This document shows, piece by piece, positions 2,678 to 9,399 of a DNA stretch of 64,000 bases. The notes under the pieces are model-generated. The model was given only the letters and a program-made list of their open reading frames with translations. It had not been told where the DNA came from and ran no database searches. The position numbers and the translations under genes are program-made. The first letter of the stretch is position 1. Each line of letters opens with the position of its first letter. Origin of the DNA: Ruegeria sp. HKCCSA071 (GTDB lineage Bacteria; Pseudomonadota; Alphaproteobacteria; Rhodobacterales; Rhodobacteraceae); assembly GCF_017872555.1 (NCBI RefSeq), contig NZ_JAEDOX010000001.1, forward strand, positions 1,116,001-1,180,000, read 5' to 3'.

Positions 2678-4156
2678 CTACCGCCGTCTTATCCGCTCAC
2701 GATTTCGCTCCCGACGTTCGAAGTTGATCTGGTTATCGCGACCCAGCGCCCGGTAGAAGCCCTGGCCCTTGGACCAGTTCGGAAAATGGGCAAAGCTGTC
2801 GACCTGATCGTCGTTTCGCCCGCGCGGAAAGGACTGCAGTTCCCGTTTGAACGCCGCCAGCCAGGGTGCATCTGCAGGCAGATGCACCTTGCCCTCTTCG
2901 ACAGGACCGCACGCGGACTGGAAACGGGTTTCCTTGTCCTTGTCAGGTCTAATGCGTTCATAGCGCCGACGGTCATCACGAAACAACTCGTCCAGAAGCG
3001 GTTTGCCGGAGGCCGCATCTTCGATCAGAACGCGATCCGGATCCCAACGGCCGACAAGCTGCAGCGCCTTGGCTTTCAGGTCTGGGTAGTCCACCTGCCC
3101 GCGCCAGACGTCGAGAAGGTACCACGCATTTTCGCGGAACCCCCAGGTTGTACAGGCCGAGAAGTCGGACCGGGGATCCGCAGACATCCCCGTATCCCAG
3201 CTTTGAACAACCAGCTGGAACCATTGGCGATCTTCGACGGTCTCGTAGGTCCCGAACCATTCCCAGCGCAGCGGCGATCCGTCTGGCGCAACTGGGTTCT
3301 GCTGATACTGGCAATTGAACACAGCTGCGCCCATTTCGCGACGCTTGGTATCCAGCGTGTTCTGATCCAAACGAGACGGGCAAAGAAGATCACCCGGTTT
3401 GTGGTGCATGACCCTTCCAAACCCAAGAGGCACCGTTTCATGTTCTTCGGCGATGGCAGACAGATACAGGTGCCGATAGGTACCGCGTTCCAGCACGTAG
3501 CCCGGCGAATCCATCTCGGGCAACCGCTGTGCAACCATGACAACGCGCCCCTCGGCCGGGTTGTCAAAGCGCGACAGCAAGTTTCCCTCAATAAACTCCT
3601 GTGCCTTGGCCAGTTCAGCTTCGGAACCCGCATCACCCGCTTTCAGCGGATCATCGATGATGATGTAATCGGCACTATGGCCAGTGACAGAGCAGCCGAT
3701 GGAGACAGCCTTGCGACTGCCTCCCTTTGTGGTGCGGATTTCTTCTGAGGTGTTGCCCTTTTTGGCCAAGACCGTTTCAGGGAACATTTCCCGGTACCAG
3801 CGCGCGGACATGATCCGACGACAATCTTCGGAATGCTTGCGCGCCAGATCCAGCCCGTAGCTGGCAACAATGATTTTGGCGCTGGGGTTATGCCCCAGAA
3901 GATAAGCGACATATGCAACGGCCACGGTGACTGATTTCAGGCAACGTGGCGGGATGTTGATGATCAGCCGCTTGTTTTCGCCTCGGCGGACATTGTCCAA
4001 CTCATGGCACATGGCCCGCACATGCCAGGCCGGATCAAAGCCGCGGTCCGTCCCTTGATGCAGCGTGTCAAACACGCGCCACACAAAGGGAAAGAAATTG
4101 TCCCGGCAAACCTCGCGCGCGACCTGCCGGACCATTTTGGGATCAGGAGCCGACAT
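2678..4156 (-). CDS. Phage terminase large subunit
   Basis: The product has 492 residues. The ATG at 4156 is preferred because GAGG lies at proper spacing upstream; an adjacent ATG at 4159 is possible. The N-terminal ATPase shows a Walker A variant (NIPPRCLKS, the PPRxxKS form common in this family) and Walker B (YIIIDDPLKAGDA). The C-terminal RNase H-like nuclease shows its acidic positions in QSWDTG, LIEDAASGK and NDDQVDSFAH. Both the packaging motor and the nuclease therefore look intact. The start overlaps the end of the DUF5681 gene by 14 bases, so the two are translationally coupled. No portal or capsid gene follows, so any DNA it packages would need structural proteins from elsewhere. 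It could also be a domesticated remnant, though no frame damage is seen. Confidence 0.85.
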   Translation of the reverse strand: MSAPDPKMVRQVAREVCRDNFFPFVWRVFDTLHQGTDRGFDPAWHVRAMCHELDNVRRGENKRLIINIPPRCLKSVTVAVAYVAYLLGHNPSAKIIVASYGLDLARKHSEDCRRIMSARWYREMFPETVLAKKGNTSEEIRTTKGGSRKAVSIGCSVTGHSADYIIIDDPLKAGDAGSEAELAKAQEFIEGNLLSRFDNPAEGRVVMVAQRLPEMDSPGYVLERGTYRHLYLSAIAEEHETVPLGFGRVMHHKPGDLLCPSRLDQNTLDTKRREMGAAVFNCQYQQNPVAPDGSPLRWEWFGTYETVEDRQWFQLVVQSWDTGMSADPRSDFSACTTWGFRENAWYLLDVWRGQVDYPDLKAKALQLVGRWDPDRVLIEDAASGKPLLDELFRDDRRRYERIRPDKDKETRFQSACGPVEEGKVHLPADAPWLAAFKRELQSFPRGRNDDQVDSFAHFPNWSKGQGFYRALGRDNQINFERRERNRERIRRR

Positions 4157-4577
4157 CATTGGCCTCTTCATCTTCAGGACCGCCGTCACCATCCGGGTGA
4201 CTGGAAAAGAAATCCCGGAGGATTTCGTAGTCGACAGCGTCCGGCTCAACCGCACGGACGCTTTCTTGCGCGTCCATGTCACTTGTGTTGAACAGATCTG
4301 CGTCCAGCTTCAGCAGCGCCATCAACAATTTCGTGTCGCCATTCAACGCGCCAGCCGTGAGCCGCTTGGCAATTGCCTCAGCCTTGGAAATCCGGATTTC
4401 GTGGCTGCCTTCGCGAACTGTAATCTTTGTTTCCAGTTCGCGTTTCAAGCTGGCGTTCACGCCTTTAGCACCTTTCGGCCGCCCTTTCGGATTGCCGGAT
4501 CGGCCTTCTTTGAACCGGGTTGCTTTGGGCGGCTTGCCGTAGCCCACCTCATACTCTTCTTTCGTATCGTCGGACAT
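4143..4577 (-). CDS. DUF5681 family protein, possible terminase partner
   Basis: The product has 144 residues. Its ATG at 4577 has a strong AGGAGG ribosome binding site seven bases upstream. The N-terminal half has the basic Gly/Pro-rich signature of the DUF5681 family (RFKEGRSGNPKGRPKGAKG), followed by a helical segment; the C terminus is acidic (DGDGGPEDEEAND). The gene overlaps the methyltransferase gene upstream by 29 bases and the terminase gene downstream by 14. A small basic DNA-binding-like protein directly before a large terminase is in the usual position of a small terminase subunit. That role is inference from position only; the family has no established function that I know of. 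Confidence 0.7.
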   Translation of the reverse strand: MSDDTKEEYEVGYGKPPKATRFKEGRSGNPKGRPKGAKGVNASLKRELETKITVREGSHEIRISKAEAIAKRLTAGALNGDTKLLMALLKLDADLFNTSDMDAQESVRAVEPDAVDYEILRDFFSSHPDGDGGPEDEEANDVGS

Positions 4578-5964
4578 GACCCACCTCCTGTTCTGAAGTG
4601 GTGTCGTTGGCCGCAGAACGCGCATCGAACGCCTGGCCTGTCACCGAATGCACGGCGCGCTCGCCAGTCATTTCCTGCCAACGGCGGATGGCGACATCCA
4701 CATAGGCCGGATCGAGCTCAATGAGCCGCGCCTGGCGCCCGGTTTTCTCAGCTGCCAGCAACTTCGCGCCGGACCCTCCAAAGACGTCCAGCACGACATC
4801 GCCGCGATGGCTCACATCCATGATGGCATCTGCCACCAAAGCTGTCGGCTTCACCGTGGGATGATCTGAGAGATCCGCCTCGCGCCCTGCCCCAAAGCTG
4901 TTCACACCGGCGTAATCCCAGACGTTGGTCCGGTTGCGCCCGTGTTTGCCCAGCTCGACGTTGTTGATGTGCGGCGCACCAGGCTTCTTGAAAACGCAAA
5001 TCAGCTCATGCTTTGAGCGATAAAGGCTGCCCATGCCTCCGTTCGTCTTGTTCCAGACGCAGAGATTGATGAGGTCCAATCCAGCTGCTTTGCCCGCCGT
5101 AATCAGTTCTTCGATATGACGCCAGTCCATGCAGATCATCGCGATGCCTCCGTTCGGCAGGCAGTCAAACAACTGCGTGATCGCGCCTGAAAGAAAGCCG
5201 CGGAACTCGCTATCCGTCATTTCTCCCGACGCCATGGCAAACTCGCGGTGTTCGGCGCTATTGCCGGACCGCACATGCCCATTGACAGGCACGTTGTAAG
5301 GCGGATCGGTGAAGACTATCTGCGGGGTCTCGCCTTCCAGCAAGGTGTCGTAGCTCTGGGCTTGAAGGGCGTCCCCGCAGAAAATGCGATGATCTCCGAG
5401 AACCCAGAGGTCGCCCGGCTGCGCAATTGCGGGTGCCGCAAGGTTCGGCGTCTCAACAGTTTCCGCTACAGATACCGTCACCTCACCGACGCTGTCGATA
5501 ATGATGTCGATCTCCGGTGTTTCGAACCCTGTGATGTCCAGATCAAAGTTCAACTCGCCATCAAGGTTGAGGTCCATCAGCTCGGCAAATTCGATCTGCA
5601 ACGCCGCTTCATTCCAGTCCGACAATTCCGCCAGCTTATTGTCCGCAATGCGCAGAGCGCGCACTTCCGCTTCTGACAAATGATCCGCGACAACAGTCGG
5701 TACGGAATTCAACCCCAGGGCCTTAGCGGCCTCATAGCGGCCATGACCCGCGATGATTGTGCCCGAACCATCCAACAGGATCGGAGTGACAAAGCCAAAC
5801 TGGGCCACCGATGCTTTCAGTTTGTCGACATTCTTGGCCGCGTGCACGCGGTTGTTGTTGGCGTAGGGCTTGATCTGGCTGATCTGGGATTGGATAACTT
5901 TTTCGGCCATCCAGATAGGCGTATTGGACGCCCGAACGTCGCTGTGTGTGTTTTTGGCAGGCAT
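4549..5964 (-). CDS. ParB-like domain fused to beta-class DNA adenine/cytosine-N4 methyltransferase
   Basis: The product has 471 residues. The ATG at 5964 follows an AGGAGG site; the open frame runs further upstream but without family sequence. Residues about 20-130 form a ParB/Srx nuclease-like domain, with GTIIAGHGRYEAAKALG and RALRIADNKL as its typical boxes. The methyltransferase follows. The catalytic motif TDPPYN precedes the AdoMet motif DVFGGSG, which is the beta order, and SDHPTVKP lies between. Such fusions are common in alphaproteobacterial prophages and islands. It would methylate a specific site on DNA; specificity cannot be read from sequence. As first gene of the left operon it could mark element DNA for protection or for recognition by the terminase below it (inference). 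Confidence 0.85.
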   Translation of the reverse strand: MPAKNTHSDVRASNTPIWMAEKVIQSQISQIKPYANNNRVHAAKNVDKLKASVAQFGFVTPILLDGSGTIIAGHGRYEAAKALGLNSVPTVVADHLSEAEVRALRIADNKLAELSDWNEAALQIEFAELMDLNLDGELNFDLDITGFETPEIDIIIDSVGEVTVSVAETVETPNLAAPAIAQPGDLWVLGDHRIFCGDALQAQSYDTLLEGETPQIVFTDPPYNVPVNGHVRSGNSAEHREFAMASGEMTDSEFRGFLSGAITQLFDCLPNGGIAMICMDWRHIEELITAGKAAGLDLINLCVWNKTNGGMGSLYRSKHELICVFKKPGAPHINNVELGKHGRNRTNVWDYAGVNSFGAGREADLSDHPTVKPTALVADAIMDVSHRGDVVLDVFGGSGAKLLAAEKTGRQARLIELDPAYVDVAIRRWQEMTGERAVHSVTGQAFDARSAANDTTSEQEVGHVRRYERRV

Positions 5965-6412
5965 AACCGCCTCCTTTTGCGTGACGCCGCGCGGACGTCG
6001 AGATGGAGGGATCGCGCTGGAAAATCGGAGAGAGCACAAATCGCAACTCCCCGGACCAATCGATCCGAGACGTTGCTCCTTTGAATGCTCTCTGCGGAAA
6101 CCTGTGTTTCCAATGAGTGCTGCCTGCGGGAGCAGTTTCCCGCCCTGATAGTCCGGGCGATTAGGTCGAATGTAGGTGCCATCATTAGGAGACGCACCCC
6201 CCAAAACCAAAAGTAACCGATTAAGATTGTTGACGAATAATCGGGGGTACGGCAGCAACGCCCTGCAAAACTCACCCCTCTTGGGATTGCCCCAGAAAGA
6301 GCTGGACTGTTGCTGTGAACCACGCATCACTGAACCCACGCCCGAGCCATTCGGACGCTCCTCGGTACCAGGGTTTGGCGTTCCGCCAACCCCAGATCAG
6401 AGGAGACAATAC
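5965..6412. promoter_or_regulatory. Divergent control region of the cassette
   Basis: 448 bases separate the two divergent operons, so both sets of promoters and operators must lie here. A TTGACG hexamer at 6230-6235 is a possible -35 for the rightward operon, but no good -10 follows at 17 bases. The region holds GC-rich patches around 6120-6160. No gene with a ribosome binding site was seen. Confidence 0.5.
6371..6393. promoter_or_regulatory. Inverted repeat just upstream of the DUF3489 ribosome binding site
   Basis: The arms GGGTTTGGCG (6371-6380) and CGCCAACCCC (6384-6393) pair at nine of ten positions around a 3-base loop. The repeat ends about eight bases before the GAGGAG ribosome binding site at 6400-6405. 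It could be an operator or an RNA hairpin controlling translation of the recombinase operon; DUF3489, which looks like a helix-turn-helix protein, is an obvious candidate to bind it. This is inference. Confidence 0.4.
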
Positions 6413-6643
6413 ATGTCCAAATCCAAACAAACCAAAATTGACAAGGTGCAACACTTGTTGCGCCGCCCGAGCGGCGCCAGCATTGAGGCGCTCTGCAAAG
6501 CAACGGGGTGGCAACCTCATTCGGTCCGAGCTGCATTGAGTGGGCTGCGGAAGACAGCCGCAACGATTGAACGGCGCAAATCCGACAAGCCACATGGTTT
6601 TTCCACATATCACCTCACAGCAAACAAGGGCGGCGAGTCATGA
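6413..6643 (+). CDS. DUF3489 small DNA-binding-like protein
   Basis: The product has 76 residues, with its ATG eight bases after GAGGAGA. It matches the DUF3489 pattern: a basic start (SKSKQTKIDKVQHLL), then a helix-turn-helix-like stretch (GASIEALCKATGWQPHSVRA) and a short C-terminal strand region. The fold suggests DNA binding. The gene opens an operon in which each following gene starts inside the previous stop (ATGA at 6640-6643), and DUF3489-DUF2924-recombinase is a recurrent trio in alphaproteobacterial genomes as I recall. A transcriptional regulator or recombination directionality factor are the two reasonable guesses. Confidence 0.75.
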   Translation: MSKSKQTKIDKVQHLLRRPSGASIEALCKATGWQPHSVRAALSGLRKTAATIERRKSDKPHGFSTYHLTANKGGES

Positions 6644-7056
6644 CGAAGACGAGCGATGTCGCCGATCTGGCCGCCATGGGTCGAACGGATCTGGTCACGC
6701 TTTGGCAGCAGCTGTTTGATCAGCCTGCCCCCGCCATGCTCAGCCAACCCTTTCTGCGCCGCTTTATCGCCTTTGAGATGCAGTCCCGCCGTCATGGCAG
6801 GCTACCCCGCCAGGTCAAAGCCACGCTGGAAAAGGGCTCTGGGAAGAAACCCCGGCCTACATGCCCTGCCCTAAAACCCGGCGGGCGCCTGCTACGCGAG
6901 TGGAATAGTGTGACCCATGTAGTCGACGTTACAGAAGACGGCTTCACTTGGAACGGTCGGTCCTATCGCTCACTCTCGGCCATCGCCCGAGAGATTACCG
7001 GCGCGCATTGGTCAGGGCCGCGTTTCTTTGGGCTCACCGGCAAGGCGGCCAAATGA
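6640..7056 (+). CDS. DUF2924 protein, recombinase-associated
   Basis: The product has 138 residues. Its start overlaps the DUF3489 stop by four bases and its stop overlaps the recombinase start by four, so all three are translationally coupled. Residues 1-70 are helical with an FLRRFIAFEMQSRRHG segment. The second half holds the DUF2924 signature RLLREWNSVTHVVDVTEDGFTWNGRSYRSLSAIA (residues about 83-117), a small beta/helix unit that resembles a DNA-binding accessory domain. Its function is not established. The tight coupling to a serine recombinase suggests an accessory or directionality factor. Confidence 0.75.
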   Translation: MTKTSDVADLAAMGRTDLVTLWQQLFDQPAPAMLSQPFLRRFIAFEMQSRRHGRLPRQVKATLEKGSGKKPRPTCPALKPGGRLLREWNSVTHVVDVTEDGFTWNGRSYRSLSAIAREITGAHWSGPRFFGLTGKAAK

Positions 7057-8732
7057 GCCCGCGCCGTAAAATCCGATGCGCCATCTACACGCGCAAGTCC
7101 TCAGAAGATGGTCTGGATCAGGACTTCAATTCGCTGGATGCGCAATATGAGGCCTGCGCGGCCTATGTCGCAAGCCAGCGACATGAAGGCTGGACCCTGT
7201 TGTCCGGGCGCTACGATGACGGTGGCCTGTCGGGCGGCACCCTAGAGCGACCCGCCCTTCAGCGCCTTCTTGAAGAGATCGATGCCGGGCGTATTGACAT
7301 GGTGGTGGTCTACAAGATTGACCGGCTGACCCGGTCGCTTGCCGACTTCTCTAAGCTGGTCGACCGGCTGGAACAGGCAAACTGTTCTTTTGTGTCCGTC
7401 ACGCAGGCCTTCAATACCTCATCTTCCATGGGCCGGTTAACGCTGAATGTGCTGTTGTCCTTTGCTCAGTTTGAACGGGAAGTCACCGCCGAACGTATTC
7501 GCGACAAGATTGCAGCGTCGAAGAAGAAGGGGCTTTGGATGGGTGGCAACCTGCCTCTGGGCTATGATCGCCACCCCGATCCGAAGGCAAGAACGCTGGT
7601 GGTGAATGAAGAGGAGGCCAGAACGGTCCGGCATCTCTTTGGGCTTTATGACGAGCTTGGTTGCCTGCGCAAAGTAGAAGAACGGGCAACGGCAGAAGAC
7701 CTGCGGTCAAAACGGGTTGTTCGGACAGATGGCAGTGTGAAGGGGGATTGTCCGCTGTCACGGGGTCAAATCTATTACCTGCTGCGCAATCCGGTCTATC
7801 TCGGAAAAATCCGCCACAAGGATAAGATCTGGGACGGACAACATCCGGCGATCATCGATCAGGACATCTGGGACCGGGTGCAGGAAAAAATGCGACAGGC
7901 CTCCAACCGCTCGCGGGCACGCGGCGACTCCGATGCGCGCCAACACTCCACTGACCCCGGGGCCTGGCTCACCGGTCTGCTGTATGACGAAACTGGTGAT
8001 CGGTTGACGCCGACCCACACCACGCGCAAAGGCCGACGGTTGCGCTACTATATCTCCAATCGACTGATCTCAGGCGGCAAGGATATCTCTGGCTGGCGAC
8101 TGCCCGGCCCAGCGCTGGAAAACGCGGTCATTGATGTCATCGTCAGACATTTGCAAGACGCCGCCGCGGCGCACCAAGTACTGGCGCAGCCGGAGGCCGG
8201 GTCAGCCGAGGCAGTTCAGACTTCAGTTGCGGATTTAGTAACCCGGCTTCTAGGCCATGGCTGTCAGATCGGCGCTGCTCTTCTGGCCAAAGGCAAACTT
8301 GCACGAGGACAGATCGACCTCGAATTTAACCCCAAAACTCTGGCAAGCGCAGTTGGCATTGCTGCGGACCAACTGCACCCGGATCTCACCCACGTCACCG
8401 CATCTTTCGATCTGCGCCGCCGCGGCGTCGAGGCCAAGGTCATCGCCGGAGACATGGCACCCCAACCTGATCCCCACCTCCGGTCCATGCTGATCCGCGC
8501 CCATGGCTGGGCCCGTGATCTGAAGGCCGGAGTTCAACTGATGGAGATTGCCCGCCGCGAAAGCGTCCCTGACGCCTTCATCCGCACCCGTGCTCAGCTC
8601 GCCTTTCTCTCACCAAAGATTCAAACGGCGATTCTCGACGGGAGCCAGCCGCCCGAACTCACACTCAAGCGTCTGGTCAGCGTGACCCACCCACTTGAAT
8701 GGTCCGAACAGGAACGCCTGTTCGGCTTCTGA
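7053..8732 (+). CDS. Large serine recombinase
   Basis: The product has 559 residues. The ATG at 7053 overlaps the DUF2924 stop. The N-terminal resolvase/invertase domain (about residues 8-160) shows the catalytic YTRKSS motif with Ser16 as probable nucleophile, VYKIDRLTRS as the conserved arginine region, and the long E helix (RLTLNVLLSFAQFEREVTAERI). A recombinase domain follows (about 180-300; NPVYLGKIRHKDKIWDG), then a zinc-ribbon-like region that appears to lack the usual four Cys, and a long C-terminal part. Length and domain order fit phage integrase-type serine recombinases that join attP and attB. The repeat-rich tract 20-200 bases downstream is in the place where an att end would be expected. 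Confidence 0.9.
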   Translation: MSPRRKIRCAIYTRKSSEDGLDQDFNSLDAQYEACAAYVASQRHEGWTLLSGRYDDGGLSGGTLERPALQRLLEEIDAGRIDMVVVYKIDRLTRSLADFSKLVDRLEQANCSFVSVTQAFNTSSSMGRLTLNVLLSFAQFEREVTAERIRDKIAASKKKGLWMGGNLPLGYDRHPDPKARTLVVNEEEARTVRHLFGLYDELGCLRKVEERATAEDLRSKRVVRTDGSVKGDCPLSRGQIYYLLRNPVYLGKIRHKDKIWDGQHPAIIDQDIWDRVQEKMRQASNRSRARGDSDARQHSTDPGAWLTGLLYDETGDRLTPTHTTRKGRRLRYYISNRLISGGKDISGWRLPGPALENAVIDVIVRHLQDAAAAHQVLAQPEAGSAEAVQTSVADLVTRLLGHGCQIGAALLAKGKLARGQIDLEFNPKTLASAVGIAADQLHPDLTHVTASFDLRRRGVEAKVIAGDMAPQPDPHLRSMLIRAHGWARDLKAGVQLMEIARRESVPDAFIRTRAQLAFLSPKIQTAILDGSQPPELTLKRLVSVTHPLEWSEQERLFGF

Positions 8733-9107
8733 CATCTCCAGCTCCTGCGTCCCTGATACAGACTTCGCCCTCCCTGATCCGGCGGAACAATTCCCTGTTC
8801 GCACGAGGAAATTCCCTGTTCCACCTTTTAGGGAATTTGCAACATAAACCTCTGAGAAACATACAGTTCTGATAGAAGAAATGACGGAAGTCAGTCCCGG
8901 TTTGCGAATATTCCCTGTAAATTGCAGGTTATCAGGGAAATCCAGCCCAAAGCGACCCCGCTAAAATGCGACACTGAGACTCGCGCCTGAATTGTCCTCT
9001 GAATGTACGGTTTGCTTCGTCTCTGATTGAAAGCGCATGCGCCAACGCGCGGGAATTGCGTAACAATTCCGGATCAGAAAATACAACTGAAGTGAGACAG
9101 GTATGAG
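8733..9107. other. Gene-free stretch between the recombinase and tRNA-Ser
   Basis: The first 210 bases hold the CAGGGAA/TTCCCTG repeat tract described separately. The remaining part up to the tRNA 3' end shows no gene with a start signal. An open frame crossing the tRNA on the minus strand is spurious. Confidence 0.6.
8750..8941. repeat. Tract of TTCCCTG/CAGGGAA direct and inverted repeats
   Basis: Copies of a TCCCTG core occur at 8750, 8771, 8792, 8813 and 8912 on the plus strand, and an inverted CAGGGAAA at 8933-8940. Two are nearly identical (AATTCCCTGTTC at 8789 and 8810). AAATTCCCT (8809-8817) pairs perfectly with AGGGAATTT (8830-8838) across 12 bases, and TTCCCTG (8911-8917) pairs with CAGGGAA (8933-8939) across 15. 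Spacing is irregular, so this is not CRISPR. The position directly after the recombinase suggests a recombinase or accessory-protein binding site, an att end, or a structured RNA. Confidence 0.7.
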
Positions 9108-9197
9108 TGGCGGGGAGACAGGGATTCGAACCCTGGGGACGCTCTCACGCCCAACGGTTTTCAAGACCGCCGCATTCGACCACTCTGCCACCTCCCC
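9108..9197 (-). tRNA. tRNA-Ser(UGA)
   Basis: The minus strand folds as a class II tRNA of 90 bases including encoded CCA. The acceptor stem GGGGAGG pairs with TCTCCCC (one G-U), the anticodon loop is CTTGAAA with anticodon TGA, there is a long variable arm (TGGGCGTGAGAGCGTCCCC), and the T arm contains GGTTCGAATCC. The discriminator is G. It lies about 170 bases beyond the repeat tract. tRNA genes are common integration sites, but mainly for tyrosine integrases, and no duplicated 3' fragment was seen. Confidence 0.95.
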
Positions 9198-9399
9198 GTC
9201 GAAGGCAGGGTCTAAGCGCAAGTTCGGCCAGAGGCAAGTCGAAATCGGGATTTCTTGCCGAAGCCCGCGCAGCGGTCTTTCCATGACTCTTCAGCCGCGT
9301 TATGATCCCCGAAATAGACCGAAACAGGCTGGCAAGCAGAACCAGCAGACCGGCAGCGGGGTTCCGAGAACGAGACCCCTTCAGGCAAGGGATAAGCAG

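Follow-up and report, generated by a model that had tools for sequence, protein, structure and literature searches.

A conserved repeat tract between a large serine recombinase gene and a tRNA-Ser gene in Ruegeria as a probable attachment-site arm of a mobile genomic island

Several known systems of serine recombination offer a comparison for the locus described here. Staphylococcal cassette chromosome (SCC) elements are islands with large serine recombinases; they enter a gene at its 3′ end, which is restored in the process. The res sites of Tn3 and gamma-delta contain extra recombinase-type sites at a fixed distance from the crossover. The characterised serine integrases use short sites at which the integrase alone suffices, whereas IHF and long arms are features of tyrosine integrases (PMC4111918). 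For one phage of Paracoccus, a serine recombinase was predicted at a tRNA-Met gene (PMC6536676). In phage WO, the serine recombinase adjoins DUF2924 (PMC10299305), and the reported targets of WO recombinases include an intergenic site as well as the magnesium chelatase gene (PMC9203015). In a partial search of the literature, DUF2924 was encountered only in papers on Wolbachia, and no published description of the arm reported below was found.

The window analysed is a stretch of 64,000 nucleotides from Ruegeria sp. HKCCSA071, to which all coordinates refer. In this window, a large serine recombinase gene is followed by a tract of TTCCCTG/CAGGGAA repeats and then by a tRNA-Ser gene (Table 1). 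It is proposed that the tract is probably one arm, the one next to the recombinase, of a mobile genomic island's attachment site, and that this arm is intasome-like in organisation and controls integration and excision. At the level of sequence, the comparisons presented here establish that the recombinase is linked at TGGCGG to tRNA genes, most often tRNA-Ser, at their 3′ ends, and that the arm lies between the recombinase gene and the crossover with a constant geometry. The assignment of the tract to an attachment-site arm is well supported on the same grounds, and that this arm may form an intasome that sets the direction of the reaction is a testable proposal. For a serine-type integrase, an arm of such complexity and conservation is unexpected, since short, simple sites are considered sufficient for this class.

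Table 1. Features of the recombinase operon, the repeat-bearing arm and the tRNA target (window positions)
Feature	Sequence	Position	Strand	Remark
DUF3489 protein		6413..6643	+	predicted winged helix; same operon, upstream of DUF2924
DUF2924 protein		6640..7056	+	companion in nearly all array loci
Large serine recombinase		7053..8732	+	559 residues; Resolvase and Recombinase domains, ParB-like C-terminal helix-turn-helix
R1	TCCCTGATAC	8750..8759	-	degenerate copy of the TTCCCTG(A/T)TC unit; has a counterpart in relatives
R2	TCCCTGATCC	8771..8780	-	21 bp past R1
R3	TTCCCTGTTC	8791..8800	-	21 bp past R2
R4	TTCCCTGTTC	8812..8821	-	21 bp past R3
R5	AGGGAA	8830..8835	+	inverted partner of R4
IHF-like site	TAAACCTCTGAGA	8845..8857	-	1 mismatch to YAANNNNYTGATW; in the spacer between repeat blocks
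R6	TTCCCTG	8911..8917	-	block 2
R8	CAGGGAA	8933..8939	+	inverted partner of R6; start-to-start 22 bp
Dyad	GAGAC-N38-GTCTC	8976..9023		internal to the arm
GAGAC half-site	GAGAC	9094..9098	+	9 bp left of the core
Crossover core	TGGCGG	9108..9113		CCA end of tRNA-Ser; right end of the element
tRNA-Ser (TGA)		9108..9197	-	integration target; antisense to the recombinase

The window recombinase matches the two Pfam domains of its class (PF00239, E 2.5e-38; PF07508, E 3.8e-12) as well as the integrase family phrog_95 (E 1.6e-94). It is alike in its Resolvase and Recombinase domains to integrases of the phiC31, Bxb1 and TP901-1 type, with TP901-1 as the best PDB match, and shares with them the trait of integrating site-specifically and restoring the end of its target. 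Unlike the phage large serine integrases, however, the Ruegeria element has a conserved arm of about 370 bp and targets tRNA genes, and its recombinase combines an apparently degenerate zinc ribbon (a weak PF13408 match after the Recombinase domain, E 0.034, with 14.9 bits against a cut-off of 25.3) with an extra ParB-like C-terminal domain. This domain weakly resembles the helix-turn-helix of Spo0J/ParB (E 0.01) and matches the phage family phrog_14161, which elsewhere is a separate gene. In a group of loci from other bacteria (L036-L056), the recombinase is split, such that the first ORF stops before the ParB-like domain, which follows as an ORF of its own; these loci have no array. The recombinase of phage WO is related (32% identity) and likewise lies next to DUF2924.

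The nearest named NCBIfam family of the window recombinase is CcrB (E 8.8e-48), but its score of 163 bits is far below the ccr family cut-off of 900, its targets are tRNA genes rather than rlmH, and its partners are DUF2924 and DUF3489, which places the element outside SCC. The locus is like the Tn3/gamma-delta res sites in having a putative accessory site, the GAGAC dyad, at a fixed distance from the crossover, although the enzyme and the DNA are larger here and the motifs are different. In layout, the locus resembles the lambda attP intasome, with a long element-side arm, phased putative arm-type sites and an IHF-like putative bend site, and integration at a tRNA 3′ end is as in many tyrosine integrases. 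This likeness is one of architecture only, since the domains of the recombinase belong to the serine and not the tyrosine catalytic family, and the element is thus not of the lambda type.

A first-pass annotation of this DNA had reported six cores of one hexamer within about 190 bases after the recombinase gene, along with inverted repeats of 9 bp (8809-8838) and 7 bp (8911-8939). The six copies of TCCCTG/CAGGGA are indeed present, starting at 8750, 8771, 8792, 8813, 8912 and 8933 (the last one inverted), and both inverted repeats are exact, one consisting of AAATTCCCT (8809-8817) and AGGGAATTT (8830-8838) and the other of TTCCCTG (8911-8917) and CAGGGAA (8933-8939). That annotation overlooked the spacing of the units, which is exactly 21 bp between successive units among the first four TCCCTG copies, and the conserved block that runs on to 9113 and includes the GAGAC-N38-GTCTC dyad and the tRNA-Ser end. 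TTCCCTG/CAGGGAA is not enriched over the window as a whole (8 observed against 8.3 expected), and four of these eight copies fall inside 149 bp. According to a hand estimate from the window rate, the chance of one such cluster is about 6e-9, or 3e-6 over the window.

The element ends at the tRNA gene. When filled and empty sites from the same genus are compared, all have the tRNA in common on the right side of TGGCGG, and no relatedness is seen on its left side. Among 54 genomes of the genus, 34 match from the end of the arm through the tRNA and 20 match the tRNA side only; seven of these 20 were read by eye, and at least G038 contains a diverged element instead. As in a tRNA-targeting integrative element, there is a junction with the tRNA 3′ end, and relatives have empty sites. 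The attachment end that the first-pass annotation had expected at the repeats is accordingly present as far as the end of the element is concerned, but not as the crossover, which coincides with the 3′ end of tRNA-Ser at 9108-9113.

A tRNA gene follows most array loci in the same place and antisense orientation. Within a set of 116 non-redundant recombinase loci, which include other alphaproteobacterial families, a tRNA lies no more than 520 bp from the recombinase stop codon in 76, and in 75 of these it is antisense. The targets comprise tRNA-Ser (four anticodons), Met, Gln, Arg, Val, Lys and Ala. No tRNA occurs within this distance at the other 40 loci, which include the split-recombinase group, where the array is absent too. 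At two loci (L072 and L075), the recombinase and the array lie apart, with several kb of other genes in between, and the array still adjoins tRNA-Ser. Some remnants that have no recombinase (L150, L157, L160) retain portions of the array next to the tRNA. The repeats thus belong to the attachment end and not to the recombinase gene. At one locus (L004), TGGCGG is joined about 430 bp past the recombinase stop codon to the apparent 5′ half of a tRNA-Leu (TGGCGGaatggtagacac) in sense orientation, which is a possible secondary target.

The tract is found well beyond the window. Among relatives of the recombinase taken from IMG/VR and GTDB genomes, two or more copies of TTCCCTG/CAGGGAA lie downstream of the recombinase stop codon at 91 loci, or 70 once near-copies are removed. 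The first-pass annotation had suggested that similar tracts lie near such recombinases in other alphaproteobacteria and had named a lack of motif enrichment beside homologous recombinases in other genomes as counter-evidence; this outcome did not arise, as the tracts recur in fixed order and spacing at the 70 non-redundant loci. In relatives, the array starts with direct units, two to four in number and spaced at 21-22 bp, usually with an inverted unit 18 bp further (a distance from TTCCCT to AGGGAA seen in 37 cases). This first block is followed by a spacer of about 74 bp, block 2 with the order TTCCCTG(-TTCCCTG)-CAGGGAA, the GAGAC-N38-GTCTC dyad, and then TGGCGG. The degenerate R1 of the window has intact TTCCCTG as its positional counterpart in L061, L067, L070, L073 and others, the TTCCCTG of R4 is invariant in all 29 aligned loci, and many relatives have an extra unit, R7, between R6 and R8. 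When 59 arms of 420 bp are aligned on TGGCGG, they contain 323 TTCCCTG/CAGGGAA motifs, compared with a mean of 3.0 and a maximum of 9 in shuffles and with 3 in recombinase coding stretches of equal length. The 29 aligned loci exhibit islands of conservation amid variable DNA, and the identity of array-bearing recombinases to the window recombinase is as low as about 41%.

When 249 genomes of the family were scanned without bias, with the block-2 pattern alone and regardless of recombinases, 14 places were returned, whereas the reversed-pattern control returned none. Eleven of the 14 are attachment ends with the core 188-198 bp further on; a tRNA is present in about half of these and a recombinase just upstream in most. 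The arm gives a way of locating one end of such islands in Rhodobacteraceae. At the other three places (L239, L240, L243), a single GAGAC comes after the TTCCCTG array, and neither a dyad or core nor a tRNA or recombinase is close by; these may be attachment arms of a variant type, or the array may serve a different purpose there. In a different alphaproteobacterial family (L276), degenerate TCCCTGTTAT units form an array beside tRNA-Ser. Among the best matches listed from related phage and plasmid records, no intact array-bearing element that would reveal attP was recognised.

The spacing within the arm follows the helical repeat. Distances between units cluster at 11, 21-22, 42-44, 63-65, 97-99, 108-110 and 119-121 bp, and repeats 21-22 bp apart lie on the same face of the helix. 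From R4 to R6, the distance is 97-99 bp in 40 loci, 109-111 bp in nine and 119-122 bp in three, so that these spacing classes differ by one or two whole helical turns. The spacer contains the IHF-like site, scored against YAANNNNYTGATW, the reverse complement of the IHF consensus. In 51 of 55 spacers the best match to it starts at offset 7-9, and a match with at most one mismatch occurs in 33 of the 55, against 4.7% of shuffles. In one subfamily, CACGGAAA replaces the IHF-like motif, and this motif could be the site of another protein. The gap between GAGAC and GTCTC is 37-39 bp in most array loci (coding control, 0), and the distance from the dyad to the core is 132 bp in 52 of 61 loci and 131-133 bp in 58 of 61. 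Relatives also have the dyad, but no TTCCCTG, next to tRNA-Val, -Met, -Ala and -Ser, so that the dyad is older than the array or more widely kept. Since these relatives at other tRNAs keep the dyad while TTCCCTG is absent, the array is not required for tRNA targeting as such. Taken together, the unit spacing, the whole-turn distances between R4 and R6, the constancy of the dyad-core distance and the IHF-like site fit a wrapped protein-DNA complex rather than a coding sequence, an RNA or a terminator.

Plasmid iterons resemble direct repeats at 21-22 bp combined with inverted half-repeats, and the element encodes a methyltransferase with a ParB_N domain. The repeats could therefore also be iterons, or a centromere-like site, that serve replication or partition of the excised circle and lie beside the attachment end by coincidence. 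This explanation is considered unlikely, since a constant dyad-core distance and whole-turn spacing of repeats and dyad are unexpected for an origin, the array tracks the recombinase tree, and the ParB_N protein is a phage-type methyltransferase whose gene may precede or follow that of the recombinase (L072, L075). On a quick tree of the recombinases, array presence requires 6 changes, compared with a mean of 28.9 when shuffled (none of 500 shuffles as low), while the tRNA target requires 34. It is thus the recombinase, rather than the target, that the array follows.

A further alternative is that the repeats are operators or promoter elements for the recombinase operon or, in the excised circle, for the genes of the left end, with DUF3489 as the binder. 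DUF3489 is predicted to be a winged helix (mean pLDDT 82, with winged helices as the best PDB matches at E of about 0.01-0.05), and in most array loci its gene precedes that of the recombinase. This alternative is slightly less plausible still, as the array lies downstream of the operon, TTCCCTG/CAGGGAA does not occur near the operon start, and no sigma-70-like promoter is present in 8600-9250. Moreover, DUF3489 is absent from at least 13 array loci, for which reason it was rejected as an obligate binder, and is present without the array in L019, L020, L028 and L033. The likeliest binder of the repeats would instead be the recombinase, through its ParB-like C-terminal domain, or DUF2924. DUF2924 has weak similarity to the RAMA domain, and its fold search gave no PDB match.

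The recombinase and tRNA genes are convergent, but a structured RNA or bidirectional terminator formed between them by the inverted repeats is very improbable. Pairing of TTCCCT with AGGGAA is possible, and the + strand folds slightly better than its shuffles (z -1.5), but stability is not significant on either strand. The consensus fold of 29 sequences has 12 pairs, nearly all invariant and none of the 12 with a compensatory change, which leaves the structured RNA that the first-pass annotation had allowed for unsupported. In addition, the tract has no Rfam match, its units are mostly direct and phased, and a single terminator-like site was found against 0.7 expected. Hardly any credence is given to the tract as the core crossover site of the recombinase itself, which the most repeated sequence near the element end might suggest, because the junction sequences refute it: the filled/empty junction at 9108-9113 is 170-360 bp off, and the whole tract is element DNA missing from empty sites.

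For the attachment-site arm, the following mechanism is proposed. The TTCCCTG units would be arm-type sites occupied side by side along one face of the helix and bound, most likely, by the ParB-like helix-turn-helix of the recombinase or by DUF2924. An IHF-type protein would bend the 74-bp spacer, allowing blocks 1 and 2 to meet, and the GAGAC dyad, whose distance from the core is fixed, would be a second site for the recombinase or for a partner. The complex so formed, similar to an intasome, would control synapsis, and with it the integration or excision of the island. More tentatively, and with a belief that falls a little short of evenly balanced, it is suggested that an alphaproteobacterial clade of large serine recombinases integrates at tRNA 3′ ends by means of a lambda-like complex, in which phased arm sites are bound either by the ParB-like domain or by DUF2924, IHF bends the DNA, and an accessory dyad lies at a set distance from the crossover. 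If so, the system would have converged on the intasomes of tyrosine integrases and would be unlike every characterised serine integrase. The clade is large, occurs at many tRNA genes and has kept an elaborate arm beside the crossover. Confirmation would mean that the direction of an integrase may depend on DNA architecture, instead of or alongside a separate directionality factor. The arm also offers testable functions for DUF2924 and the ParB-like domain.

At the opposite side of the island, TGGCGGTGCTGTCAGACnAATTCGAACCAGTCTCAG was considered as the left end of the element and rejected, as it is the end of an IS6-family IS (NF033587, 186 bits against 125). It is joined to element ends in tandem loci and occupies unrelated sites as well; in the genome from which the window comes, the tRNA lies 43.7 kb to its right. 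A reconstructed attP with a second 38-bp dyad and an island of 43.7 kb had been built on this IS6-family terminus, TGGCGG-TGCTGTCAGAC..., and both were withdrawn. The left end was also sought through the flank of empty sites, where it was not found and the flank itself is variable, and in the own genome, where the sequence left of the IS is found elsewhere in G011. Right ends joined at TGGC/GG to the IS6-family terminus, with no tRNA, occur at L012, L066, L092, L097, L104, L200-L203, L206-L208 and L246 and in the own genome (G000:C11 near 1081359). In total, about a dozen element ends from several genera meet this terminus at the same nucleotide, and no target duplication is visible beyond the IS where the far end is readable. 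This suggests that the IS6-family terminus may be an alternative attB. The terminus has GG and ATTCGAACC in common with the tRNA 3′ end (T-arm).

The recombinase is accompanied at many loci by a module of a ParB_N-methyltransferase, DUF5681 and a large terminase, which in the window lies at 2678-5967 on the - strand. Neither in the window close to this module nor among the ORFs listed for the 34 kb to the left was a capsid or portal gene recognised, and the arrangement is reminiscent of a phage satellite or of a prophage in decay. To the left of the window (G000:C11:1094201-1116247; L225, L226), the translations indicate sugar-type and urea-type ABC transporters and urease genes, which may be cargo of the island. 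Near the element end, the window also encodes a caspase-domain (Peptidase_C14) protein with a weak peptidoglycan-binding domain (799-2466, - strand).
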